Shown here: piece by piece, positions 27,006-56,584 of the stretch
Layout of the letters: each line of letters begins with the position of its first letter
Position numbering within the stretch: the first letter of the stretch is position 1
Source: Cymbomonas tetramitiformis
Lineage: Eukaryota; Chlorophyta; Pyramimonadophyceae; Pyramimonadales; Pyramimonadaceae
Assembly (NCBI GenBank): GCA_001247695.2
Contig: LGRX02035415.1
Coordinates: forward strand, 1 to 64,000
Direction: 5' to 3'
DNA: 64,000 bases
Notes under the pieces: model-generated
Databases searched by the model: none
Seen by the model: the letters and a program-made list of their open reading frames with translations, nothing else
Told to the model about the DNA's origin: nothing
Made by a program: the position numbers and the translations under genes

Positions 27006-29411
27006 ATGAGTGGCACAGACGTATACACGTATAATACGTCGGGTGGAATATTCAGGGGCACACCACAGACTAATCCCGAGTATCAAGCTAATGCCGAGCT
27101 ACCATATCTCGGTTATGGTGCGCCCTCAGGAGCACACTATATGCAACACGGGCAGCAGTACACCTCAGCCGTCGGTTCGTCAGCAACAGTACAGCACACA
27201 TACGTGCAGGGAGGGCCTGTACAATACCAAGTCTCACCTGCAGCTGCTGACACACCAGGGTATGCACAACCGTCAGCAGCAGTACCGTACACACACGTGC
27301 AGGATGTGCAATATCCTCCCCCTCCAACTTCGACAGCAGTGACAGGAGTACCGGGAACCTACACCGGACTGCAGCACACACCCCAAGTAGCAGCAACTCA
27401 GTATTCACACCCAGCTGCAGCTTATTCTCCAATGTACGGAATGGCACACACATCCGCAGCGTATTCATTCCCTACAGTACAGAATGGAGCATATCAGGGG
27501 CCAACACTGCAGGGGTACCCACAGGCAGCAGATCAGTCAGTACAGCAACTCCAATTCGTTACACCAACTGCTGCGCCAATGAGTATGGCAGCACCTTTAC
27601 CTCTGCATACCTGGACGGGACATTACCCTTTCAGGAACGTGCAGTACCCTACTCCGTACCAGCTGGCAGGAGGGTACACACAGGAACTTAGCAGAAGACC
27701 AATATATGGAGCTCCCATTCCTATGTCCGCAGGATGGGCTCACTCGCCTATGCCAGGGCCTAGTCGTGTGGTGGAAGAGGCGGCGACTATGCGTGTGCGT
27801 GTGGGCACACTGGATGGAGTGCGCAAACCAGCCGACGAGACACACACTACGGAGGCTATGCGTGTGGACGCTTTAGAGACAGTGCGCAGTCAGGAGGCCA
27901 TGCGTATTAATGCGTCAGAGATAATAATGGCGGAGACTATGTGTGCGCACACGCAGGGAAGCATGCATACTGTCACCACCGAGGAGATGATCGATGCAGG
28001 AGGCGTGCGTGTAGACATCCTGGAGAATGCGCGTACCGTGGATGCTGGTCAACTCCCTGTTGTGGAAGAATTGCCTACCAATGTACAGATGGGCGTTGCG
28101 GGTATGCGCATAAATACTGGTGATATATCGAAGGTGCCGGGTGCGCGCATTAACGCACAGGCGACGGCGACTACGCATACCAACGAGGCAACGACATCCG
28201 CATTGACGCAGTCTTCTACGGAACCGAGCAATGTATCAGGGGTATTTATGGTCTCTTCGACTGTATCTGCAGTATCTGAAGCAATTACTTCCCCTACGTA
28301 TTCATCTCCTATATCTGATGGTGCTCCTCCGTCTCCGACTGAGACAGAGTTAGAGGGCGAGACAGGGAAGTTGGGATGCACTGTGGTGATTAACGCCACG
28401 CAATATCCTGATAACGACAGCAAAGAGTCATACGCTCGAGGTCGTGAAGACGGTCAGCCGCCATCCCGAAGGGTAAGAGACATTAGAACACGCATTTCCT
28501 CCGGGCCATATACTTGGGCTCGACATATTCTGCCATACCGGCACGACTCAAACTCACCTGGGAGTTCTTCTTTTGGTGAATCAGACAGATCCCGAGCAAG
28601 GAAAGATTCGAAGGCGAGAAAGCGCAGGCTGGCGGAACGCGCAGGTTCGGGCTCGGGCAGTGGTCACAGTGTGGCTGGGTCACAGGGGTTGGCGGACCTT
28701 ACCCAGACCATCAGCGACGCAGTGGTTGCTAAGTTGCAGCAGCTACAATCTGAAAACGCTGGTGGAGAACCTTCTGCTGAAGTATCTCTGGGTCAGGCGC
28801 CAGGAGCGACGCAGAGCTCGCAATCCTTATCCTTACCCGCAGTGGTTGCTAAGACGCAGCAGCTACAGCCTGGAAACGCTGGTGGAGAACCTTCTGCTGA
28901 AGTATCTCTGGGTCAGACGCCAGGAGCGACGCGGATGTCGCAACCACCACCCTCACCTGAGGATCGCTTGTCGCAGATCGCCCGAGTTGAGGAGGCCAGG
29001 CGCAAGTCCTCTGAGGGGCTCACGATAGAGGAGGCGATCAAGCTGGGCTTCCTAACAGTGGAGTTCCCCCCGATGAAGGATGCCATGAGCAAGTCCCCTG
29101 AGGGGCTCACGATGGAGGAGGCGACCAAGCTGGGTTTCCTAAGCGAGTCGCACCACTCGGCTGTGGTAACTGAGATGGTGGGAGCCTCGACTCAGGTGTG
29201 TGACTCGACTAACCCTGAATCGGGGACGCAGCGGGCGGAAGAATATGTGGCCAAGGTCTCGTTCGAATTGGACAACCATGCAGAGCCTCCTCCTAGTAGA
29301 AGACCTTACCAGATGTCGGTGGAGGAACTTCGACAACTACGAGAGAGTATTGACCCTGTACATCCTGGAGATCCCTGTTCAGGCGGGCGGGAATGCGTAT
29401 TGAGGAGGTGA
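27006..29411 (+). CDS. Gag-position low-complexity protein of LTR element
   Basis: This is a frame of 801 codons from ATG at 27006. Residues 1-260 are rich in Gln, Pro, Tyr, Ala and Thr. Residues 260-400 hold imperfect MRV-x-x-LE-type repeats. The region after residue 490 is basic, then comes an exact-looking 41-residue tandem repeat (VVAK(L/T)QQLQ ... GATQ/GATR, about residues 575-655) and a second pair (EGLT(I/M)EEA(I/T)KLGFL). I see no CCHC knuckle, capsid major-homology region or protease DT/SG motif. The C-terminal 30 residues (SVEELRQLRESIDPVHPG) may be what remains of the deleted Gag-Pol junction. The stop overlaps the next frame by 19 nt (-1). Confidence 0.7.
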   Translation: MSGTDVYTYNTSGGIFRGTPQTNPEYQANAELPYLGYGAPSGAHYMQHGQQYTSAVGSSATVQHTYVQGGPVQYQVSPAAADTPGYAQPSAAVPYTHVQDVQYPPPPTSTAVTGVPGTYTGLQHTPQVAATQYSHPAAAYSPMYGMAHTSAAYSFPTVQNGAYQGPTLQGYPQAADQSVQQLQFVTPTAAPMSMAAPLPLHTWTGHYPFRNVQYPTPYQLAGGYTQELSRRPIYGAPIPMSAGWAHSPMPGPSRVVEEAATMRVRVGTLDGVRKPADETHTTEAMRVDALETVRSQEAMRINASEIIMAETMCAHTQGSMHTVTTEEMIDAGGVRVDILENARTVDAGQLPVVEELPTNVQMGVAGMRINTGDISKVPGARINAQATATTHTNEATTSALTQSSTEPSNVSGVFMVSSTVSAVSEAITSPTYSSPISDGAPPSPTETELEGETGKLGCTVVINATQYPDNDSKESYARGREDGQPPSRRVRDIRTRISSGPYTWARHILPYRHDSNSPGSSSFGESDRSRARKDSKARKRRLAERAGSGSGSGHSVAGSQGLADLTQTISDAVVAKLQQLQSENAGGEPSAEVSLGQAPGATQSSQSLSLPAVVAKTQQLQPGNAGGEPSAEVSLGQTPGATRMSQPPPSPEDRLSQIARVEEARRKSSEGLTIEEAIKLGFLTVEFPPMKDAMSKSPEGLTMEEATKLGFLSESHHSAVVTEMVGASTQVCDSTNPESGTQRAEEYVAKVSFELDNHAEPPPSRRPYQMSVEELRQLRESIDPVHPGDPCSGGRECVLRR

Positions 29412-31057
29412 TTCCCACGCATGATGCGCAAGGTGAACCAGTGCAATTGATGGAAGGTTCCAATGGGAAACTAGTGGATTTACAGCAGCCTATGCTGGTG
29501 GTGTATGCGCCTCCATCGAAGCAGCGGGTACAAAGAGTACGTCAACCCAGAGGGCGAGTACCTATAATACACGCAGGCAAAGCAGCCAAGTTGCGTGACT
29601 CTCAAGAAGGAGCGTCTGATGCTGCTTTCTTGGAGGCCTTGAAGTCCGAGTATACTAGAGATGGACCTCTCAATGATGAGCTACGCACTAAGGTAAAGTG
29701 CGCTCCTCACAGCCGCACCAAAGAATTCTGTCTGGTGGGTGAGGTACTGTGGAGAACTGCATCGGGAAGATTTCAGTTGGTGCTGGGAGAGGACTCTCCG
29801 CTGAGAGAGATTATTATGCGCGAAGCGCATGAATCAGCGACAGCTGGCCATACTGGCAGAGATAAAACGCTGGAGCGTGTTCTGCGAAGGTTCTGGTGGA
29901 GGAATGCACACCAAGATGTGGGAGACTGGGTTGCCTCCTGTTCAGTTTGTCAGGCGGTGAAGCCCCGATCATCTTTCCCAGATGGATTGCTGAACCCGCA
30001 TTCTATTCCAACTCGGGTATGGCAGGATGTGGGAGTGGATTTCGTCACAGGCCTACCTTTAACTGAGCAAGGCAATGACGCGTTTGTGGCATTTACGTGC
30101 AAACTGTCTAAAATGGTACATGTGGTTCCTATGAATTTTGGGAACAGCTCCGCTGCTACCGTGGCCCGTATCTACTTTGACACGGTGTGGAGACAACATG
30201 GAGCTCCGATGAAAATAGTCAGTGACCGTGATCCACGCTTCCAGGATGCCTTCTGGAAGGAGTTGATGAGATTGATGGGGGTGAAGGTGGCGATGACTAC
30301 GCCCTACAACCCTCGCTCTGATGGTCAAGCAGAGCACACTAACAGGGTGGTGGAGGACATGTTAAGATCGTTTGTGGAGGACAATCCAGAGTCCTGGGAC
30401 TTATACGCTACAAACGTAGAGTTCGCAATCAACGATTCGCGTAATGATGTTACAGGCTTCACCCCATTTGAATTATGTTGTGGTGTGTCGCCCATGTCGC
30501 AGCTTGACATCTTCCTGGAGGCCGCTCAGTTGCACAGCGGGCGACGAAAAGGAGGGGTAGGGACTGCACATGAATGGGCGTCGAGATTTTCGTCGCAGTT
30601 GCGGGACGCACGCAGCAAACTTGAGCTAGCACAACGCAGGCAGCGGGACGCTTTTGATCAGCGACACACGCAGCGGGAGTATGCGGTAGGTGACTTGGTC
30701 TGGATTGAGGCTAAACATCTCACAGAGAAGTTGATGGACAGAGCCTTGTGCCGCAAGCTGAGCAAGCGGTGGCATGGTCCAGTTGCAGTTACGGAACGCT
30801 TTTACAGCGATCTGCAGGCGGAGATGCCCGAGGCAGACAGAGGGGCGCCAGTGGCGTATAGACTGAAGTTGCCCCCACATTGGAGAGTACATGACGTGTT
30901 CGCGCAGCACAGATTGAAACCCTACACAGGTGGGGAGGACACTTTCGCTCTGCGACAGCAGACAGTGACACCCGAAGCAGTGGTGGTGGACGGACAGAAG
31001 GAGGCTCATGTAGAGAAAATCCTGAGCCGACGCGTACGCGTGAGCAGGGGCAAATAA
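29393..31057 (+). CDS. Ty3/Gypsy-type integrase with GPY/F and split chromodomain
   Basis: The enzyme joins the LTR DNA to the chromosome. The HHCC zinc region (EAHESATAGHTG ... ASCSVCQ) is at about residues 140-190. The catalytic D,D35E triad is in WQDVGVDFVTG, IVSDRDPRF and DGQAEHTNRVVEDM (about 215, 275, 312). A GPY/F-like module (KLSKRWHGPVAV ... WRVHDVFAQHRLKPY) follows. The C-terminal residues (HVEKILSRRVRVSRGK) are the start of a chromodomain whose remainder lies after a single in-frame TAA (31055-31057), at the head of the methyltransferase frame. Chromodomains steer integration to marked chromatin. Start: ATG at 29393, -1 relative to the preceding frame. Confidence 0.88.
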   Translation: MRIEEVIPTHDAQGEPVQLMEGSNGKLVDLQQPMLVVYAPPSKQRVQRVRQPRGRVPIIHAGKAAKLRDSQEGASDAAFLEALKSEYTRDGPLNDELRTKVKCAPHSRTKEFCLVGEVLWRTASGRFQLVLGEDSPLREIIMREAHESATAGHTGRDKTLERVLRRFWWRNAHQDVGDWVASCSVCQAVKPRSSFPDGLLNPHSIPTRVWQDVGVDFVTGLPLTEQGNDAFVAFTCKLSKMVHVVPMNFGNSSAATVARIYFDTVWRQHGAPMKIVSDRDPRFQDAFWKELMRLMGVKVAMTTPYNPRSDGQAEHTNRVVEDMLRSFVEDNPESWDLYATNVEFAINDSRNDVTGFTPFELCCGVSPMSQLDIFLEAAQLHSGRRKGGVGTAHEWASRFSSQLRDARSKLELAQRRQRDAFDQRHTQREYAVGDLVWIEAKHLTEKLMDRALCRKLSKRWHGPVAVTERFYSDLQAEMPEADRGAPVAYRLKLPPHWRVHDVFAQHRLKPYTGGEDTFALRQQTVTPEAVVVDGQKEAHVEKILSRRVRVSRGK

Positions 31058-37586: not shown

Positions 37587-37628
37587 ATCGCTCTAAAAAC
37601 ACCACCACATTGAATACAAATGTATTGA
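37585..37628 (-). repeat. SINE-like type 2 tail, 3' flank of LINE
   Basis: TATATCGCTCTAAAAACACC ... CAAATGTATTGA is the reverse of the tail at 23988-24037. The matching head and core lie on the other side of the LINE (46795-46960), so the LINE split one element. Confidence 0.8.
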
Positions 37629-37726
37629 GAAAGAAAAAGAAAAAGAAAAAAATGTGACTCTTCCTACTGGAAGCGTGATATTTGAAGGTGCTCAGCTGTT
37701 ACGCCTGCCCCTAGTCACATGCACTA

Positions 37727-39919
37727 TCAAGGCGGCTTCTTGCTGTTTTTCAGAGCCTTCTCCTTCTCCGATCTGCTGTGTGAAATCAACATCTTGGCAG
37801 CCCATTCCACCGCGATGCTACTGATTTTCTTGAGGAGGGCCTCCGCTTCCTTCTTGTTGAAGCCGAGGTGTTGCGTGAGAGCCCTTGCGTTGTGTTCGTA
37901 TACTGACCCCGTGGTTCCGAAAACCATCGGGTGAAAGAATACTTTATAGCCTTTGGATCTGAGTAGCTCCATAAGGGGCTCATACTTGTTGAGCTTGTCG
38001 TGAAGGGACACATACCAGCGCGTGTCCCACGTGAAGGCCACCTCTATGAGGTGGATTTCCCCCACGTCCTCCCTTCGGGTGTTCTCCGGCCTGCCTGGGG
38101 GGGCGTCCCTGACGTCCTCTGCACCCTTGATCATGACAATATCCACGAAGTGTGGTATGTCGTCTGGGGGGTCCTTCGCCCCCGGGTGGTCCCTTCCGTC
38201 CCTACGGCACTGACCCCTTTTGAGTATGAAGTCTGGTATCGGGCGCGTGCATCTGTTAGTCCCGTCGAGTCCAGCGTGGTGCGCGATCCAGATCGGACTG
38301 GCACCCGTTCGACCCTTCCTGATTGCTTCGTAAAGGGTCCTTGCCACTTCGTTGTGCCTGGCTGTGGCCATGTTCATGCTGGTCTCGTCTTTGCATCCCG
38401 CCAGCCTGTGTGCCGGGGTGTCCCTTTTCCCGCAGAGGGCGCAGTCCGGGTCCGGGTATTTGCCCGGCCATATGAGGTGCTTTCTGGCAGCCGTCATGAG
38501 GACCCCAAACCGGCATCTTAGGATCAGGGACCTGAATGTCAGTGGAGTAACCTTCCAGAAATGATTGGATATTCCTGGTATCGACTTGTCTTGGAGAATT
38601 TCCCGCGGGGGCTCCTCCACTCTTCTTCCCATGTGTGCCTCGACCGCGGCAGCGTCTGCGTGGCTTGTGGCGGCCCTGTCTCCGTTTCCCCGGTGCATGG
38701 CCTCCCGGTCCCTGTTCCTCTTTCTTCTTCTTGCTGGGGCTGTCTCCTGGTAGGCGTCTATCGCTTGTTGCGGGACGTCCGTCAGGTTTTGGAGTTTCGA
38801 CTCTCCCAGGTCCATCCCCATCATCGAGCGGCACAGTCCGTCTATTGGGTCCGCACATTCTGCCTCCTCTATCGCCTGCATCATCTCCCTGTCTGGCGAG
38901 TTCATGGCCTCCTCCTCGCCCATGTCCCTTATTTGGGTGGCCTCCAGCATTATTCCAGCCTCATCGAATTCCCAGAGTAGGTCCCACTCGTCCTGAGTGG
39001 TCACTTGTTCCCGCGGGTGTACCTGTTCCTGGTCGCCCGGCTCCCGTCGCATCGGCGGGCCGCCCTGGCTCCAGGGAGCGTGCTGCAATTCCTCCAGGAG
39101 CATCAGTTCCTGGAGAGTCTCCCCTGGTGTCTCCATTTCCGCGTCCTGTTGGCCCCGGTCGGGGTCTTGGGCCGGCCCGGGGGCGCCGGTCGTGGGATTC
39201 GCCGTTATAGAGCCCTCGACCGAGAGAGCTCCTTCCCGATTTCCCCTGCCGGGTGTCCCCCATTCTTCCCACGGGCTGCTCGGGGGTTGTAGCCATTTCC
39301 TCACCGATTTGCGCTGTGTCGCTTTTAGGGCAATCCTTTCTGCCACATACCTTTCCACCGCCCCCTCCCCTTGTAGGGGCCTCATCGATTCTCCATCTCG
39401 GGCATTGGCCGTGAGCGTGTACATGGTCCTGTTGTCCCATGGTTCAATTTGGGTGGTTCCCTCCATGTTTTCTGCTGCCTGTTTGGCCGCCTCATCTGCC
39501 TTGTCGTTGCCCTTCACCCCCGTGTGGCTTTTGACTTTCCTGAGTGAGACCCCTGTTCCCTTGCTGTTATGCTGTTCGACCAGGGAGAGTATATCCTCAA
39601 GCAAATCCCTGTGTCTATGGCATTCCATCGTGTGGGGTCTGGACAGCATGTTGAGAATTTGGTACATACTGCAGAGGCTGTCCGTGCAGATTGCTATCTC
39701 GCTTAGTGTTGAGCGTTCCCTGGCCCTGAGTGCCGCGTGGATCGCCAGGAGTTCCGCTCTGTTGATGGTGAGGTGTCCACCCGTCGACCACGTACCTCTC
39801 CAGGTTCTGGGGCTTTCATCCCCTCTGGGGTCCCAGTAGGCCGCCCCCACTCTATGTAACCCCCCTTCTTCCTCTGGGTCCAGTCGCGACCCGTCCGTAT
39901 AGAGGAACGAGGTCGCGTC
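37727..39919 (-). CDS. LINE RNase H domain and C-terminal CCHC-type zinc motif
   Basis: RNase H would degrade RNA in the hybrid. The first catalytic Asp lies in LYTDGSR (39885-39903), upstream of the first ATG at 39850, directly after an in-frame TAG (39920-39922). Then come INRAELLAIHAAL (Glu), IAICTDSLCSMYQI (Asp) and KVKSHTGVKGNDKADEAAKQAA (Asp). A long charged linker of about 280 residues follows. The C-terminal LINE domain has FRSLILRCRFGVL and the zinc-binding CALCGKRDTPAHRLAGC with RHNE. The sequence ends at 37727. It is in the same frame as 39920-40258, so one suppressed or mutated stop separates it from the rest of the polyprotein. Confidence 0.85.
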   Translation of the reverse strand, partial: DATSFLYTDGSRLDPEEEGGLHRVGAAYWDPRGDESPRTWRGTWSTGGHLTINRAELLAIHAALRARERSTLSEIAICTDSLCSMYQILNMLSRPHTMECHRHRDLLEDILSLVEQHNSKGTGVSLRKVKSHTGVKGNDKADEAAKQAAENMEGTTQIEPWDNRTMYTLTANARDGESMRPLQGEGAVERYVAERIALKATQRKSVRKWLQPPSSPWEEWGTPGRGNREGALSVEGSITANPTTGAPGPAQDPDRGQQDAEMETPGETLQELMLLEELQHAPWSQGGPPMRREPGDQEQVHPREQVTTQDEWDLLWEFDEAGIMLEATQIRDMGEEEAMNSPDREMMQAIEEAECADPIDGLCRSMMGMDLGESKLQNLTDVPQQAIDAYQETAPARRRKRNRDREAMHRGNGDRAATSHADAAAVEAHMGRRVEEPPREILQDKSIPGISNHFWKVTPLTFRSLILRCRFGVLMTAARKHLIWPGKYPDPDCALCGKRDTPAHRLAGCKDETSMNMATARHNEVARTLYEAIRKGRTGASPIWIAHHAGLDGTNRCTRPIPDFILKRGQCRRDGRDHPGAKDPPDDIPHFVDIVMIKGAEDVRDAPPGRPENTRREDVGEIHLIEVAFTWDTRWYVSLHDKLNKYEPLMELLRSKGYKVFFHPMVFGTTGSVYEHNARALTQHLGFNKKEAEALLKKISSIAVEWAAKMLISHSRSEKEKALKNSKKPP

Positions 39920-40258
39920 CTAGGCTTTGTTGATTTTCCCTAGGGTTCTGGAAAGTCTGGTTTTGTGCTTAATGGGACACGTGGGGAACCGCTCCCTCAC
40001 TTCCGTATGTCCCCTGTCCCTGTCTTGTCTGCTGAAGAGCATGGGAGTGCGTTCCATGGCCTTTAGCCATCTGGCCCTCGAGTCCTCTTTGATCTTGTCC
40101 AGAGGCCATGCAGTGTTCGCCGCATGGTACTCCGTGATCGTGACTTCGGTGAGTCCTCTGTCGCGCCATGTTTGTCTCATGGCCCTCGCTGCCTCCGGGG
40201 TGCGGTCTTCCTTGGGGACCTCGCCCCCTTCGTTCCCCCACCCCTGTCTGCGCGACAT
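39920..40258 (-). CDS. LINE linker frame between PCIF1-like and RNase H regions
   Basis: A 112-codon frame overlapping the end of the preceding ORF by about 80 nt. It is basic and Trp/Arg-rich (QTWRDRGLTEVTITEY; RARWLKAMERTP) and ends LSRTLGKINKA at a TAG. Sequence in the same frame beyond the TAG continues into RNase H. It has no domain of its own. Confidence 0.6.
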   Translation of the reverse strand: MSRRQGWGNEGGEVPKEDRTPEAARAMRQTWRDRGLTEVTITEYHAANTAWPLDKIKEDSRARWLKAMERTPMLFSRQDRDRGHTEVRERFPTCPIKHKTRLSRTLGKINKA

Positions 40259-43200
40259 GCTCGGTATTTTCTCATCGGGTGGGGGTCGAAGATCATGTCG
40301 TATTGACTAGCGTTCTCCATCGCGTTTTTAACCGCTGCCATGTCGGACACGGCCTCCGAGGTGTGGACCCTCGGGTTGGCCGGCCTGAGATTCCGAAGCG
40401 TGTGGTATTTACGGACCGTGCAGTACGTACCGTGCTGCAGGGCTTTCCCGACGAGTTCCGCTGCCCCTTCTGGGTCCGGGCAGAATTTTTTCCATCCCTC
40501 TGCGTTGGCAACAACTAGGATCCTAACTCCCCAGTTGCTGTAGTCCTTCTTCGTGACACCTGATACTGTGGTGCCTCCCCAGTGGTCTGGGGGAAGGAAC
40601 GTAAAGCTTTTTCTTGGGATTACCCCAAATTCATGTATCCTAGTATCTCCATATCTCCTGCAGTATGCCTTGGCTGGTGTTCTCGTCCAGGCCGGGTAAA
40701 TTCCTACCCCCAGTACCGGGGTTTTCGCCATGGTGGACATCAGAGCCTCCTGAAGCGCTTTGTCCAGGTCTGCCGCTGTGTACTCCGGATTGAACTCGAA
40801 GGCGCCCAGCTCTCCCCAGTGAGTGTCCCATGCAGACCCTTTGGATCCAAAAATCTTGTCCCTGTCGAACTTGGAGCAGTATGTCGCCGTGTGGCTGTGT
40901 ACGTTGAGCGGCGACGCGAATACCTCCGCCTGGATTCCGAAGGCCTCCTGGAGCGCCTGCATAATTTCCGGAGGGAGCGTCCAGTGATTCTGCAGTGCAG
41001 TTTTCTTGACTTCCTCTTCCTCCTCGCAGGAATATCTTTTGAGCAGGAGGACCACTTCTGTGGCGAACCCGTGGACCGTGCCCAGCTGTGGCTCCCGCTC
41101 CTCGAAGGACCGCCGTCGCTCCTCCCCCTCCCTTGTGTGGGTCTGATCTGCGCTGTTCGTGCCCGTCGCGGCCACATATCTGTCGTAGAGCCTGTCGAGT
41201 ACCTCCTCTTTGAGGGCACCCACCATCTTACCCCGCTCGTCGTGTGCGAACACGTGGTGCCTGCCTGTCTCCGTCGTGAGCGTGCACTTGCCTGAGGGTG
41301 CTGCGTCCCAGTCTGGGTTAAAGGGTTCGGTGTCTATGTTGAGCTTGGTGACCCCCGGCCAGTAGTGGGCATGCCTCGTGGGAGTCCCTGACAGTGGTTC
41401 TCTTTCTGTGGGGCTCCGAGCCTGCTGATCTTCCCGCTCCTTGTTGTGAAACATGTCGGTCTCTCGTTCGGCCTGGCTCGGGTTCATCCCCGCAATTCCT
41501 CCTGTCAGCAGGGTGTCCTCTTCAACCCATGCCTCCCCTTGCGGGCGAATTGGCCCGAGCAGGTATTCCCTGCTTCCCCAGTGCGTCCTAACCGCCAGGA
41601 TTGTGGTGCTCTCGGACGCCTCAACGGCCTGGGGTTCCTCCTCCGTTTCTTCGAGCACTTCCGGATCACTGGCAGCCGTTGGGCCAGCGCCTACCGAGAG
41701 CTCCATGGTGTCGATCCTCCACCACTTGTTTCTGCTCCGGTAGTCGTTGACAGGGGGGTGCGTTGCCCATACGACCTGTTCGCTGCTTATGAGGTGCGTG
41801 GTCATCAGCCTAACCGCATCTCTTGAGAATCCGATTTTGGCTGCATGCTGGAACAGCTCCCCCGTCCTGACATCCCCTTTGGCTACTTGAGCGAGGACCC
41901 ATGTCCTCAGCATCATGATTTGCGCCTTGGTCCCTTTCCACTTCGTGCCTCTGCCGTCGTCCAGGCTAACCTTTGCGATCGGGCAGGGGCTTGTTTCCCC
42001 CTGAAGTGCCTGTGCGGGAGGGTTCGGCCTGGGTCTGATCTCCTCCCTCTCCGCCGTGGCCTGGGGGCTTCGTAGGGTCTGCCTGGTCCTTTTCGCTCCG
42101 ACCTTCGGGAGTTCCTGGGCGTGCCCGGGGATCTTTGGCATCGTGTCTGTCTGGGTCTGCCTGGTCGGGCTCTTCTCGACTTGCATTTGTCCTGCGTCGG
42201 CCTCTTCTTGGATTTCGTCATCCCCCTCCTCGAAGGAGATTGGGTCATGAGTCTCTCCCTCCCCGTGGAACACGTGGTGGCGTTCCCGTTGTTCCAACTC
42301 TCCTATGCGCGCCATGATTGGGCCTCTCATGGCCTCCCGGTACCTCCTGGAGGTCGTCGCCTCTCCGCCCTCTGGGGGCCCATGCAGCCCGATCCAGGAC
42401 TCCCATGTCGCTCCCGTGGTGGACCTATTCCATTCCTGCCACTTGTCAATCATGTAGCACACCCAGACTCCACATTGGTACCCGTCCCGCTGGTGTGTGA
42501 CCCCCATGCTGGAAGCCGTTATGTTGACCGGCGGCCATCCCGGCGGTCCTGCCCATTGTCTCAGTGCCGTCAGTAGGCGCGCGTCCTCCCCCCCCATCGG
42601 GTCATAGAGGTAGACTGAGACGCTGGTGTCCTCATTTCTCCCGAAGAGGAGCACGTTCCAGTGGCTGCCGTCGCAAGTCAGGACGAAGGAAAATCCCCCG
42701 TCCCGAACCGTTTCCATCGTGTTGCGCATCTGCGCGTCGTATTGGTCAGACTGCTCGAACGTGATTCCGTTGAGGGCATCCGCGAGTTTCGTCTGGTGCA
42801 TCGACACCGTGGCCACGTCCGTTGTACAGAGGCTGTGGGTTTCCACTTGTATGGAGCTGAGCCACGCCTCCCTGCCCCTGGTGTCCGAGAAGACTCCTTC
42901 CGTCCTGTGCCTGGGGGGGCCCTCCCTCCGGGGTGCAGGTCCGCTTCTTCCTCCCCCCTTCAGGAGGCTGTCCGCATGGGACCCTTCAGTGCGGTTTCCC
43001 CGCATTGCCCTCCTGCAGTCCATCGCCTCCTTCTCGGTGAGTCTTGCTCCGGCTCTGGCTGCGTGTCGCAGGTCTGAGAGGGTTTTTTCCGCCTTGGGTC
43101 TTACACCCACGGAGTCCATTACCATGACCCTTCCCCCCGGGTCCTCTAGCAGGGTGGGTCTGACTCCAATATCGTGGCATTTAAAGGCGTCCTCGTGGTC

Positions 43201-44112
43201 TTCTTCATCCTTGGCGCAATAGCCTGTCGCCAATCGTTTTAAGGCGTTCCTGGCTTGCATGGAGGTCGTGGGGGGTCCTCTTCTTCCCGCGTGCCACAGC
43301 GATCGCGGGCCCCATTTGGATTGAGTGAGGTGGAAGCCCGCTTCCCAAGTGGTTGGTTCTTCCTCGTTGACGGCCTGGGGTTCTGCCATTTTTTGGAATC
43401 CCAGAGCGTTGTGTGCCTCCTGGGAAGGTATAAATTGAGGTTTGAGGGCAAGGTTCCTCGGGTTGTCCCAGAATTGCGCATCGTTGGGCTTGTCAGCAAG
43501 CGCTTCGCATATATATGGGTATAGCATGAGCATGAAGGTTCGCATGCGCCCTTGAAGCCTGGCAGGGACTTTCGCTTTTGCTTCTCTGAGGCTGCACGCA
43601 CGGGTGCCCCCCTGCGCCACATAGAATCCCTCCTCCACGAAAGGGAGCAGGGACAGCAGCGTAGTCAGACTAAGCGGGATCTCCTCTTGGTCCTTGACTG
43701 AGTAAATCTGCATGCTCTCTTCCCCCGTGTCCTTGTTCATGTCCGTTCTGTGTCTGCCTTCGAGTGCACTCGGGAAGGGCTTCCGAACCGCATTCGCTAA
43801 CTTGGAGATAACCCTGTGCTGGGTGATGATCAGGTCCGCCAGTAGCGGTCCAGATCCTGTGAGTAAGACTTGGTGCTCACGTAACACCGCAAGTTGCCGG
43901 GCTGTGCAGCACCTGTCGAGTTGCCCAGTTCTGACTGTACCGTCCACCTGTCCCTGTCTGCGGTTGTAGTGGTACCTGACCAGCCCCCTCGTGGTGGCGC
44001 TAAGTTGAGGTCTGTTTGACGTGAAAGGCCTCATTTTCTCTGAACACTTCTCTCGGCCTCTCTCGAAGGTCCTCCCTGGTGGCGGTGGCCATCTGCAGGG
44101 CGCTCGCCACAC
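40177..44112 (-). CDS. LINE middle ORF: Ulp1-type protease and PCIF1-like methyltransferase domain
   Basis: A frame of 1,311 codons. Residues of about 415-590 form a Ulp1/C48 cysteine-protease domain: catalytic His in CDGSHWNVLLF (about 482), Asp in VYLYDPMGG, the oxyanion Gln and catalytic Cys in HQRDGYQCGVWVCYM. This could process the polyprotein or remove SUMO-like tags. Around residues 735-810 is a winged-helix-like stretch. From about 1000, TEVVLLLKRYSC, EVFASPLN, YCSKFDRDKIFGSKGS and GAFEFNPEY match the layout of PCIF1-type mRNA cap m6A methyltransferases, but the catalytic NPPF is NPEY. Real coding begins upstream, up to about 44270 in another frame: the stated start is an artefact of frameshifts near 44030-44060 and 44275-44285. 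Confidence 0.8.
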   Translation of the reverse strand: MWRAPCRWPPPPGRTFERGREKCSEKMRPFTSNRPQLSATTRGLVRYHYNRRQGQVDGTVRTGQLDRCCTARQLAVLREHQVLLTGSGPLLADLIITQHRVISKLANAVRKPFPSALEGRHRTDMNKDTGEESMQIYSVKDQEEIPLSLTTLLSLLPFVEEGFYVAQGGTRACSLREAKAKVPARLQGRMRTFMLMLYPYICEALADKPNDAQFWDNPRNLALKPQFIPSQEAHNALGFQKMAEPQAVNEEEPTTWEAGFHLTQSKWGPRSLWHAGRRGPPTTSMQARNALKRLATGYCAKDEEDHEDAFKCHDIGVRPTLLEDPGGRVMVMDSVGVRPKAEKTLSDLRHAARAGARLTEKEAMDCRRAMRGNRTEGSHADSLLKGGGRSGPAPRREGPPRHRTEGVFSDTRGREAWLSSIQVETHSLCTTDVATVSMHQTKLADALNGITFEQSDQYDAQMRNTMETVRDGGFSFVLTCDGSHWNVLLFGRNEDTSVSVYLYDPMGGEDARLLTALRQWAGPPGWPPVNITASSMGVTHQRDGYQCGVWVCYMIDKWQEWNRSTTGATWESWIGLHGPPEGGEATTSRRYREAMRGPIMARIGELEQRERHHVFHGEGETHDPISFEEGDDEIQEEADAGQMQVEKSPTRQTQTDTMPKIPGHAQELPKVGAKRTRQTLRSPQATAEREEIRPRPNPPAQALQGETSPCPIAKVSLDDGRGTKWKGTKAQIMMLRTWVLAQVAKGDVRTGELFQHAAKIGFSRDAVRLMTTHLISSEQVVWATHPPVNDYRSRNKWWRIDTMELSVGAGPTAASDPEVLEETEEEPQAVEASESTTILAVRTHWGSREYLLGPIRPQGEAWVEEDTLLTGGIAGMNPSQAERETDMFHNKEREDQQARSPTEREPLSGTPTRHAHYWPGVTKLNIDTEPFNPDWDAAPSGKCTLTTETGRHHVFAHDERGKMVGALKEEVLDRLYDRYVAATGTNSADQTHTREGEERRRSFEEREPQLGTVHGFATEVVLLLKRYSCEEEEEVKKTALQNHWTLPPEIMQALQEAFGIQAEVFASPLNVHSHTATYCSKFDRDKIFGSKGSAWDTHWGELGAFEFNPEYTAADLDKALQEALMSTMAKTPVLGVGIYPAWTRTPAKAYCRRYGDTRIHEFGVIPRKSFTFLPPDHWGGTTVSGVTKKDYSNWGVRILVVANAEGWKKFCPDPEGAAELVGKALQHGTYCTVRKYHTLRNLRPANPRVHTSEAVSDMAAVKNAMENASQYDMIFDPHPMRKYRACRADRGGGTKGARSPRKTAPRRQRGP

Positions 44113-44241
44113 TTTGTGCGTACGTGGCCATCAGCGGCGTGTGTCCAAGCCCGTAGGAGGTTTTCGGGAGTGCCGTGTAGCAGTTAGCGGTGCCTCTTGG
44201 CAGTCCATTAAGGAGCTTGTACGCCCCGCCGATAATCGCGT

Positions 44242-46794
44242 CTAGGTCCTCGATTTCCTTGGTAGAAAAATCCCTAAGGGGAGGGCATACCTAAGCTGTC
44301 CTATAACTGCAGAGCGAAGGACCTCCTCCTGCTGCCCGCTCGTTAAAGGGGAGTGGAGGAGCGCCTGTATCCTTTCCCTTGCCTGCAGAAAGGAGGCTTG
44401 CTTCTGGACCGTCCAGTCTCCCGAGAGGGCGACCTGCATTCCAAGGTACTTGTATGGGTCATCCGGGTGGAGGTACGGGAATCCGTGCCTGCCTACACCT
44501 GGGGTGTGCATGGTGACATCCTCGTATGTCTCCTCAAGGATCGGGGATCCCTTTTCGTCCGTTCCCGTAATTCCGCATTTAGCCTTGTTGATTCGAAGTC
44601 CACTCCAGTTGGAGTAGAGCTCCAGCTTCCTGACCTGCACCGCCAGCTGCGTTGCCGACTCTGCGACTAGGGCAAGGTCGTCAACATATGCCGCCGAGGA
44701 AGTGCGAATTTGTTTGTCCGAATCCGTGAGGCGGTGCAGATACCCCTTGTTGCCCGCTTTGAGCCAGCGTAGAAGGGGTTCCAAGTAGAGAATAAAGAGT
44801 AGGGGGCTCAGCGAGTCTCCCTGCACTAGTCCCCTTTTGACCATAAGGGGTTCCGAGCTGTGGTGCTCTATCTTCGAGGCCATCCTAAAAGGTGACCTGT
44901 GGGCCTCCCCCCCGTAGAGGTCTGCCACCACTTTGACCGCGTCCTCCGGGATCCCCAGGTACTTCATAGTGTGCTGGAGTCTGTCATGCTCCACCGACCC
45001 GTAGGCGTTCTCGAAGTCTACGTAGAGAACATGCAGTTGGCTGCGGGACAGTTTGCTGTCCTCGATAACATGTTGCAGCCGTAGGAGCTGGTTGATTGTG
45101 CTTCTGTGTTTCCTAGAACCTATTTGCTCTTGGCTGTGGATACTGTTTACCTCGCAGAACGTGGATAGAACTTCCGTGACCATCGACGTGTAAAGCTTGA
45201 GAATTGTGCGGAGAAGCCCTATGGGCCTGTAATTGGAAAACACAGAGGTGTCCCCCTTCTTATGCAGGTAAATAAAGGTGCCAAGCTTCCACGTGCCTGG
45301 GGTTATCCCCGCTTTCCACATCGCCCTCATGAGTGAGAAGAGAACTTCGTGGAATTCCTCCGGCATGGCTTTGAGGATTTCGTTTGGTACCGCATCCGGG
45401 CCGGCCGCCTTCCCGTTGGGGAGCCGTTTGACAATTTGTCTGTAGAGTTCAATAGTGAGTCTGCTCCCAAGCTCCGTTTTCTTCGGTCTTTGCCCCGGCT
45501 TTATTCTATCCGGGGCTTCTGCCGCCAGCCATGGTATCTCTTCGTCCAGCCGGTCCGTCCTGGGGTGTTCGAAACAGTACAGGTCCGAGTGGGCCATGTG
45601 CCCCGAGAAGGCCTCCGCAGTGGCCACCGCCCCAACTGCCATTTTGCGATTTCTGTCCCATATCCCCAAGGTTCTTCCTTTCGGGAGTGCATTGCGGTCT
45701 CGAAAGACGAACCTGTGGGCTGATTTCTTCATTCGATAATAGTTGCTGCGGAATTTTTGGACAAATGTCTCCCAGGTTTCGGCTTTGTGGTCTTTGATAA
45801 CAGATTTAGCTTCCTGTCTGAACCTGCGCATCTCAGACTCCGCCCACCAGTGGGGGTCTTCCGGTTCCGCACATGTGTCGGGTAGGCCCTGCGCCGTGTC
45901 TTGTTGTTCCGCCATGGCCTCTTCCAGCAGTGCCGCGCTGGGGGCCTCTCCTGTCGCCCTTTCTATCGCCAGCATCTCCTGTAGGACTGCCGCCGCTTTC
46001 AGCGCTTTGTCTCGCTTCCTGAATTTAGCTTTCGGTAATCGGACCCCTGTGTTGGGGTCCCTGGTGACCTTGGGCCTGCACCTGACGGTTCCCAGGGGGA
46101 TCTCCACGGCCTGCATGGCTTGTTGAAGGACCCCGTCAATCGCCTTCCCGGCCTCATCAATTCTTTCCCTGGCGTCCGGGCTCCCCCTTTCCGCCGCATC
46201 GACCGCGTTTTCGATCACTGTCTTGAATTCATCCTCCCTGAGACTCGGTTGGAGCGCCGAATCTATTGCCGCCGTCATCGTGCGTTGTAAGGCTTTGGAG
46301 ATTGGGAATTGATATTTCGTGACCGGGTCGGGTTTCGCCTGCTCTTCCACAGCCGGTGTGGTCGTGTGCAGCCTCCACAGCGGCACCGCCGCTACTGCCG
46401 CTTGGTGGTCGCTGCAGTGTCTGTGTGCCCTAGTGTCGATCGGGTGCCGTACGTCAGCGATCTGCTGAAGTTCCTCTGACGCCAGCCACCCATCGATTTT
46501 GTGGTCCCCAAACGTGGGCCCTTGCGGGCAGCTGATCTCCGCAAGGCCTGCCCGTTCAGACATCGCTCTCCATGCACGCTGTTCCTTCCCATCTTGCTCC
46601 CGGGGGGTCTCCGCGACATTGAAGTCTCCCCCCACTACCATGTGCTCCCCCTTCCTGGAAGCCACTGCAGCCTCCCGGGCTATGTATTCTCGGATACACG
46701 TCCTGACCACCTCTTCTTCAGGGTGGGGGGGGTTGTAGACACCGAGCACGTGCACCTTTATGCCGCTCGGTAGCGTGATAACCACGTGCTGTAG
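44242..46794 (-). CDS. LINE endonuclease (partial) and reverse transcriptase
   Basis: The endonuclease would nick target DNA and the RT copy RNA at the nick. The C-terminal half of an AP-type endonuclease is present: LGVYNPPH, VVGGDFNVA (about residue 75) and CSDHQAAVA (about 146). The N-terminal half with its Asn and Glu sites is missing. The RT core has GPDAVPNEILKAMP, SNYRPIGLLRTILKLY, LYVDFENAYGSVEHDRL (motif A), GLVQGDSLSPLLFILYL (motif B) and AAYVDDLALVAES (motif C, about 722). The frame is open to 46848, but the first 18 codons belong to the flanking SINE-like repeat. It ends by frameshift near 44280; the protein continues downstream. Confidence 0.9.
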   Translation of the reverse strand, partial: LQHVVITLPSGIKVHVLGVYNPPHPEEEVVRTCIREYIAREAAVASRKGEHMVVGGDFNVAETPREQDGKEQRAWRAMSERAGLAEISCPQGPTFGDHKIDGWLASEELQQIADVRHPIDTRAHRHCSDHQAAVAAVPLWRLHTTTPAVEEQAKPDPVTKYQFPISKALQRTMTAAIDSALQPSLREDEFKTVIENAVDAAERGSPDARERIDEAGKAIDGVLQQAMQAVEIPLGTVRCRPKVTRDPNTGVRLPKAKFRKRDKALKAAAVLQEMLAIERATGEAPSAALLEEAMAEQQDTAQGLPDTCAEPEDPHWWAESEMRRFRQEAKSVIKDHKAETWETFVQKFRSNYYRMKKSAHRFVFRDRNALPKGRTLGIWDRNRKMAVGAVATAEAFSGHMAHSDLYCFEHPRTDRLDEEIPWLAAEAPDRIKPGQRPKKTELGSRLTIELYRQIVKRLPNGKAAGPDAVPNEILKAMPEEFHEVLFSLMRAMWKAGITPGTWKLGTFIYLHKKGDTSVFSNYRPIGLLRTILKLYTSMVTEVLSTFCEVNSIHSQEQIGSRKHRSTINQLLRLQHVIEDSKLSRSQLHVLYVDFENAYGSVEHDRLQHTMKYLGIPEDAVKVVADLYGGEAHRSPFRMASKIEHHSSEPLMVKRGLVQGDSLSPLLFILYLEPLLRWLKAGNKGYLHRLTDSDKQIRTSSAAYVDDLALVAESATQLAVQVRKLELYSNWSGLRINKAKCGITGTDEKGSPILEETYEDVTMHTPGVGRHGFPYLHPDDPYKYLGMQVALSGDWTVQKQASFLQARERIQALLHSPLTSGQQEEVLRSAVIGQLRYALPLGIFLPRKSRT

Positions 46795-46795
46795 G

Positions 46796-46960
46796 ATATG
46801 ACACTGTATATCAGAGGCATCCAGGATCACCCGGACCGTGACAAACACGACGCTTATCCCGGCGCGACGGGGCCTACGAGACTTGTGGAATGCGGTACAT
46901 CATCGTATGACTAACATATGATGCATGTGTGAGATGTATCACTACGTCGAAGCGCGCACC
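46796..46960 (-). repeat. SINE-like type 2 head and core, 5' flank of LINE
   Basis: Matches 23838-23995 (GGTGCGCGCTTCGACG, CATGCATCATATGTTAGTCA, CCGCATTCCACAAG). The remainder of the element is at 37585-37628. Confidence 0.8.
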
Positions 46961-54776: not shown

Positions 54777-55710
54777 TCAATCGCTAAGACCACTCGCGTC
54801 AGATTCCCATCCGCCCTCAGGTATGATCGTCACCTCAGCTCGCACTCCCGCTAACGCTATCGGTTCCGGCTCAAACTCGGGCGGGTCACTCTCAACAACA
54901 GCTGACTGGACTAAAACGCTCATCTCGCTCAGATCCTCCCTGACAAGCAGTTCAGACAGGAACGCATGCACCTCTTCATGTAGGGTCAGGTTGTGGAAAA
55001 GCTGTTTTAACAGTGCTGACGGAATCCCATACAAATTCTCTCGCGCTCCCATGCCCTTCGCGAACACACCTCCGGCTCTCATCGCGCGCCCTCCTTGCGC
55101 TACTTTCTCGTGCCTACCGTGCTGCCGGAAGAACTCGCAAGGCGTATCGGAATCGCACACTCGCAAGGGTGTGCGCAACGGAACGTTGGTCCAGATGTGC
55201 GTGGGCTTCCTGTATGCGGTCCCGTATTTGCAGTACGTGACGAGGTGCGGAGCTGGTAGATTGCTCATGCAGCGACGCGTGTGCAACCCGTGGGGCTCTC
55301 TTCCCTCGGGTTCTCAATGAAGTATGCTTCGGGCCTCAAGTACCGGATGATCTCCAATGTCCTACGAACTCGCCTGTCCGCAGCACGCAAATCTCGGATG
55401 CCTACCGTCTTCGCTTGGCTGTACTCTGTGCAAGGTGGGCTAGCCCAGACTACGTCGAAGTGTCCTGGTCTGAACTGTCGGTAGTCCCATCGCATGATAT
55501 CCTCGCAATGTGTGGGGCCCCACTTGGGCTGAATGTCTACGCAACTACTTCGCTGTTGGGAAATTGCTTAGTGAACTGCCTCTCGACTGACCCGGTCCCA
55601 CAAAACAATACAAGAATCTTAGACTGGCCGACTGGCTCCTTCTCAAGTGCTGCGGCTCCGTTGACTGGCGGCAGGGTGCTCTGAGCAGATACTCTCGCGA
55701 AAGTTCCTAC
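54777..55710 (-). pseudogene. C5 cytosine methyltransferase of second LTR element, frameshifted
   Basis: The pieces are in three frames: ILVLFCGTGSVERQF (motif I, end of the frame 56454-55537), then FDVVWASPPCTEYSQAKT with the catalytic Cys and YFIENPREE (55495-55265), then TYCKYGTAYRKPTHIWTN and the C-terminal part (55286-54777). Two frameshifts (near 55537-55495 and 55275) break the gene. Motifs and spacing match the intact enzyme at 31073-32107, with extra C-terminal sequence. Confidence 0.82.
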
Positions 55711-56584
55711 TTCCTCATCAAACCTCTCCTCTGGCACCCATGGCATTGCTCCGTCTACCTTGAGCTCCTCCGATAGCGTGGTCCATACCGCTCCTGCGGA
55801 CTCGTCGCGTCTCTTACGGACCCTAAGCTTCTCTCGCTCCACTCTCTTAGCCTCGATCCTCTCAAACTCCAACAACGCTCGGTTGGGAACACCGGGCCTG
55901 CCGGCTCCGTCCCACTCCAGATCCTCTCGGGTCTTCCACTCGTTCTCACCGCGGGGCATTCCTGTCCACTTGACCAGGTACTCTGTCCACCTCCTGCCCT
56001 GGCGCTGGCGCGTGCGCGAACGCTCCACCCTCTCGACGTGGGTTTCCTTGCGCCCGCTGACGTCCAACGGAGGAGGGGGAATCTCCTTAGCTCTCTCAAC
56101 GAAGCGGCTGCCCGACTCTACTGGCGAAAGCCGGTCCACGGTAAACACATCGTGCACTTTCCACTGCTTAGGCGTCTGCAACCTATAGGCCGACGGTGCG
56201 CCTCTATCGCTCGCGGGAAGGGCCATCTGCCTGTCGCTGTGAAAGACTTCCAGCACCCGAAGGGGCCCAAGGCGCTTCTTAAGCAATTTCTTGTGCAACC
56301 CGCGGTCGCCCGGCTGGGTGAGGTGCGTGGCATCCACCCAAACCTCATCGCCTACTGCGTAACTCCTGGACCTGTGACGCGCGTCGTACTGGGCGATCTG
56401 TTGCTGCTGAGCTAAGAGCAGCTTTCTCCCTAGCGAGCTGCAACTGGCGAACAAACTGGCGGGCTGTCTCGTGGGCTGTACCCTTTTTTACTGCTGCGCC
56501 CCTCCCCCCCTTAGCTCGGCCTCTCCGTGATGCAAGTGCTGCCTCCACGAAGAAGTCCAAGCTGAGAGGCCGGAGCGTGACCAT
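55537..56584 (-). pseudogene. Integrase C-terminus and chromodomain of second LTR element
   Basis: The frame changes near 56560 and 56450. The recognisable parts are SYAVGDEVWVDATHL, KKLLKKRLGPLRVLEVF and WKVHDVFTVDRLSPV (GPY/F-like module), then an unbroken chromodomain (HVERVERSRTRQRQGRRW, TEYLVKWTGMPRGENEWK). This shows what the chromodomain of the first element looked like before its TAA. Confidence 0.8.

Follow-up and report, generated by a model that had tools for sequence, protein, structure and literature searches.

A PCIF1-like methyltransferase-fold domain between the reverse transcriptase and RNase H of a LINE from Cymbomonas tetramitiformis

In 2005, Kojima and Fujiwara reportedly described a cysteine protease in the LINE Dualen. 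This element, Dualen/RandI of Chlamydomonas, combines an APE-type endonuclease, a restriction-like endonuclease (RLE), a reverse transcriptase (RT) and an RNase H in one element (PMC4640811); the same source, whose main text does not contain the word "methyltransferase", places an Ulp1-like protease in the NeSL and Utopia LINEs, the domain being N-terminal in the nematode families. A methyltransferase (MT) occurs in DIRS1 elements, whose pol has the order RT-RNase H-MT; the function of this MT was unknown in 2011 (PMC3266345), and it has been described as Dam-like (PMC5890265). The helical domain of the cellular enzyme PCIF1 binds the m7G cap, and a review reports that the enzyme is also active on RNA/DNA hybrids, single-stranded DNA and double-stranded DNA (PMC10544176).

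The element examined here, present as a broken copy in a 64-kb stretch of C. tetramitiformis DNA (the window), is similar to Dualen/RandI in its domain content, with an APE, an RT, an RNase H, a cysteine protease and a probable RLE, but differs from it in that a PCIF1-like domain stands between its RT and its RNase H, in that there are two CE-clan domains and in its length of ca. 18 kb. Compared by description, it has, as DIRS1 does, an adenine-methyltransferase-like domain next to RT and RNase H, although in DIRS1 the MT follows RNase H, whereas here the PCIF1-like domain precedes it. SymbioLINE-Dnmt is likewise a LINE with a methyltransferase under purifying selection, but there the enzyme is a cytosine DNMT, encoded in a frame upstream of that of RT (PMC5890265). 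The likeness to NeSL and Utopia lies in the LINE-borne Ulp1-like domain, and the combination that an earlier note on this DNA had considered new is therefore new only in its PCIF1-like part. In the open-licence literature, which leaves most subscription papers outside, no description of a PCIF1 domain in a retroelement was found among the titles and beginnings of abstracts listed. The Pfam name of the domain already stands in the UniRef and NCBI entries for these proteins; the domain is thus annotated but, as far as we have seen, not discussed.

Three minus-strand open frames of the window are the parts of a single LINE copy, with the frame interrupted between them (Table 1). The copy is considered 5′-truncated because its homology to the intact copies spans only positions 46798 to 37626; the truncation has removed the first CE-clan domain and the N-terminal part of the APE. 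Comparison of the 3′ ends of copies showed that it terminates in a T/C-rich tail, and no target-site duplication was found in the flanks examined. The nearest named protein is CYMTET_25594 of C. tetramitiformis (P0001), with 96% identity over the region searched.

Table 1. Features of the LINE copy in the window.
Feature	Position	Strand	Basis or content
LINE copy, 5′-truncated	37626..46798	-	92% identity to intact copies, blastn against C647 and C323
Frame 1	46899..44242	-	End of APE endonuclease, reverse transcriptase
APE-type endonuclease, C-terminal part (GGDFN, SDHQ)	46399..46752	-	Exo_endo_phos_2, E 1.9e-4, under Pfam cut-off
Reverse transcriptase	44431..45261	-	RVT_1, E 1e-30
Frame 2	44130..40177	-	CE-clan domain 2, PCIF1-like domain
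CE-clan/Ulp1-like cysteine protease domain 2	42313..42930	-	Fold, catalytic His/Asp/Gln/Cys, profile
PCIF1/CAPAM-like methyltransferase-fold domain	40435..41295	-	PF12237, structure model, fold matches, conserved sites
ASPLN motif, aligned with human PCIF1 residues 513-517	40903..40917	-	Alignment
NPEY tetrapeptide at position of PCIF1 catalytic NPPF	40780..40791	-	Alignment
Frame 3	39919..37727	-	RNase H, CCHC knuckle, probable RLE
RNase H	39473..39907	-	PF00075, E 1.5e-17
CCHC zinc knuckle, C-x2-C-x7-H-x4-C	38393..38443	-	Motif
Probable restriction-like endonuclease (RLE)	37800..38280 (borders approximate)	-	Motifs PDF at 38239, IEVAF at 38047

A search of the Cymbomonas genome with PF12237, in which 150 of 2,094 first-look candidates were scored, gave at least 151 matches, and every match listed exceeded the cut-off. 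Among the copies read, ORF2 is a single open frame of 3,530 codons in four (C647, C323, C8199 and C16968). In C647 it encodes, in this order, CE-clan domain 1, APE, RT, CE-clan domain 2, PCIF1-like domain, RNase H, and CCHC and RLE motifs, with Pfam matches to the PCIF1-like domain, RT and RNase H at E 3.4e-20, 8e-30 and 5.7e-16, respectively. A chance resemblance to PCIF1 was rejected on the strength of the profile match, and a host gene adjoining the LINE on that of the recurrence of the same order within one 3,530-codon frame in the four copies; the latter reading is also contradicted by the presence of RT and PCIF1 within one protein in relatives. Some copies are 97-99% identical to one another, suggesting that the LINE was active recently. 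The flanks read showed candidate target-site duplications of 9 bp for C323 and 12 bp for C6230, with 20 bases at the 5′ end of the latter left unaligned.

Upstream of ORF2, the four copies with the 3,530-codon frame have another frame that overlaps ORF2 in a different phase, and in C5516, C23413, C2483 and C6230 the ORF2 frame continues into an ORF1-like region, reaching 4,789-6,021 codons from stop to stop; this difference between the two sets of four copies reflects either a frameshift or an assembly error. The ORF1-like frame (L022:1475-4543, 1,023 codons) had no Pfam match at E up to 1, and base composition is coding-like in the matching part of C23413. Direct repeats of roughly 120-470 bp occur in the long 5′ region of C23413, C5516 and C6230.

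The earlier note had proposed an Ulp1-type protease with its catalytic residues in place, followed in the same polyprotein by a PCIF1-like domain, and both were found in that order. CE-clan domain 2 has the expected fold and the His, Asp, Gln and Cys in sequence, the Gln being situated six residues before the Cys, and the domain after it matches PF12237. CE-clan domain 1, which the truncation had hidden from the earlier note, precedes the APE at the N-terminal end of ORF2 in C647 (L022:940-1542) and in seven other copies, and has 29% identity to domain 2 of the window. The motifs of C647 are CDGEHW...QCGVW for domain 1 and CDGSHW...QCGVW for domain 2, and the catalytic pattern is conserved in both domains of all eight copies long enough to show them. 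Protease 1 shows little sign of constraint, its dN/dS ranging from 0.29 to 1.52 in the seven near-identical copies compared, noisy values based on few changes; the value obtained for the window copy arose from a cross-match to protease 2 and was set aside.

In the protein database, the protease 2 region matched only P0001 and P0002 at E up to 0.1; its profile, run against 41 proteins, matched the same two and, weakly, P0005 (E 5.8e-4), with no other below E 0.5. Protease and PCIF1-like domain do not generally occur together in related LINEs: none of the ten relatives spanning RT to PCIF1 matched the profile at E<0.5, a search that a diverged protease could escape. RT, PCIF1 and RNase H thus form the constant part, to which the protease seems to be a local addition. 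Some of the relatives have a PHD finger in that place: a scan of 11 relatives (E up to 0.01) detected it in five, where it follows RT and precedes PCIF1 or, in fragmentary sequences, simply precedes PCIF1. The match exceeds the Pfam cut-off for P0033 and P0035 and is under it for P0024, P0027 and P0034. Pfam reported no chromodomain in relatives of the P0005 type, where one had been suspected.

In intact copies, the APE gave a Pfam match to Exo_endo_phos in C647 (E 5.5e-16) and an ExoIII match in C323 (E 1.2e-5). The closest solved RTs to that of the window are R2 (E 3.8e-25) and then others including LINE-1 (E 1.7e-14), and the family profile also matches the C-terminal part of the R2 protein 9nl2 (E 2.9e-9). 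The RLE motifs are present in many relatives, and the RLE domain alone gave no significant match to solved structures in the PDB.

Both by sequence and by fold, the closest family to the domain between RT and RNase H is PCIF1/CAPAM. The methyltransferase fold on which the earlier note had made its reading depend is present in the predicted model, which corresponds to the PCIF1-family fold over human residues 416-668 only. At 23 positions the human residue is also the one found in 85% or more of the aligned members; E510, ASPLN 513-517, Y523, D531, FG 534-535, P554 and P586 are the same in human PCIF1 and in all 32 aligned members, and these positions fall within the stretch that corresponds to the methyltransferase domain. 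The differences from human PCIF1 include an NHW-x-TPP loop in place of GSLP and the tetrapeptide NPEY in place of NPPF: NPEY occurs in 37 of 41 related proteins and NPPF in none. In N6-adenine methyltransferases, the Asn, the Pro next to it and the aromatic residue hold and stack the target base, and the proline that is replaced in NPEY occurs in active motifs. NPEY retains these three residues, with Glu in the third position, and 31 of the 32 aligned members have the Asn and the aromatic residue. Catalysis may have been lost, since that proline is replaced, and judging from these residues the domain has about an even chance of being an active methyltransferase.

The dN/dS values between the window copy and C647 were 0.07 for PCIF1, 0.08 for RLE, 0.12 for RT and for APE, 0.15 for RNase H, 0.17 for protease 2 and 0.21-0.28 for the linkers, and those of the PCIF1-like domain were 0.02-0.05 against ten further loci (dS 0.39-0.57), which were found by this domain itself; most copies were chosen by their PF12237 score, which biases the PCIF1 values low, less so for the window copy. 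The PCIF1-like domain is under strong purifying selection, no weaker than that acting on RT. Tree distances of RT and PCIF1 are correlated among 12 elements (Mantel r 0.93, p 1e-4), also without the two Cymbomonas sequences (r 0.88, p 2e-4, n = 10), and a late capture by one subfamily was rejected on this ground. The two trees differ in branching, as in the position of P0025, which is poorly supported in the RT tree, and the identities of RT, PCIF1, RNase H and RLE drop roughly in step across relatives. The PCIF1-like domain is a core part of the element, with a fixed place, and has been inherited together with RT.

The reading that we tentatively favour, with a probability falling just short of even, is that of a Dualen-like LINE whose PCIF1-like domain, long held between RT and RNase H, acts on adenines of the element's own RNA or cDNA and not on the cap. 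The CE-clan domains would cut the polyprotein after translation, or strip SUMO or ubiquitin, and the element would insert by target-primed reverse transcription. Its conservation suggests that the methyltransferase-fold domain retains the cofactor pocket and uses S-adenosylmethionine; it would modify, or at least grip, adenines of the RNA template or of the new cDNA, beside RT and RNase H. The arrangement would be the LINE counterpart of RT-RNase H-MT in DIRS elements. The little constraint on CE-clan domain 1, which has a part in this scheme, speaks against it. To our knowledge, the function of the DIRS MT has received no later answer, and a second retroelement clade with an adenine-methyltransferase-fold domain by RNase H makes this question testable by comparison. 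It is possible, if doubtful, that the domain is instead a catalytically dead PCIF1 relative, a binding module by which RNA, an RNA/DNA hybrid or RNA polymerase II is held close to RT. The alteration of the catalytic motif in nearly the whole clade is consistent with this, but the Asn and aromatic residue kept in all but one of the aligned members, together with ten further core positions shared with the human enzyme, are more than a mere binder seems to need.

Action on the adenines of the element's RNA or cDNA could go further, although we consider this unlikely: the LINE clade would encode an N6-adenine methyltransferase with a new NPEY site, marking the RNA template or the fresh cDNA during target-primed reverse transcription. 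If so, each new insertion would bear a self-made mark, and in the relatives with a PHD finger a single protein would both read chromatin and write adenine methylation.

The earlier note had suggested a role for the domain at the mRNA cap; in favour of such a role, as a methyltransferase of the cap-adjacent adenosine of the element's own mRNA, the cap-specific enzyme is the closest family. This role is weakened and now seems improbable: NPEY replaces NPPF, nothing corresponding to the helical domain that binds the cap, located before human residue 416, was seen in a model that leaves out the residues upstream of the domain, and Pfam reported no match to a WW family (E up to 1), either in the window frames or in the intact ORF2 of C647. 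Unlike PCIF1/CAPAM, the domain is part of a retroelement polyprotein. Cap specificity is rated low because no helical counterpart was seen. Bee PCIF1, with NPPY, is also without detected m6Am, and the motif alone is therefore not decisive. The LINE is a natural source of a PCIF1 relative whose catalytic motif is altered and in which a cap-binding domain is not visible. It is very improbable that the domain writes 6mA in DNA so that new insertions are marked as permissive chromatin under the guidance of chromatin readers. The PHD fingers of P0033 and P0035 could be adduced for this, as could the association, in several protists and algae, of 6mA with H3K4me3 at active start sites (PMC12695648), but the sole DNA-methyltransferase family match was weak (E 0.045 in P0041, one of five proteins scanned), Pfam assigned PCIF1_WW alone to the domain, and robust 6mA is reported only where AMT1 is encoded (PMC12695648).

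As to the origin of the domain, a human PCIF1 segment compared with the genome gave matches of 30-32% identity among the 150 scored of 1,511 first-look candidates, and the contigs read were LINE copies; a cellular PCIF1 of the Cymbomonas genome was rejected as the source, in a comparison that could miss an intron-split gene. Two pattern searches for viral relatives in IMG/VR gave no matches and 16 matches, respectively, and one for prokaryotic relatives in GTDB genomes gave 13; none was confirmed using the window domain as reference, a procedure that would miss distant relatives.

The window also contains parts of LTR elements: positions 29354-31057 encode the integrase of a Gypsy-type element (H2C2, rve and SH3_Tf2-1), and a chromodomain with a Tf2-1-like SH3 at 55537-56487, on the minus strand, is the end of another.
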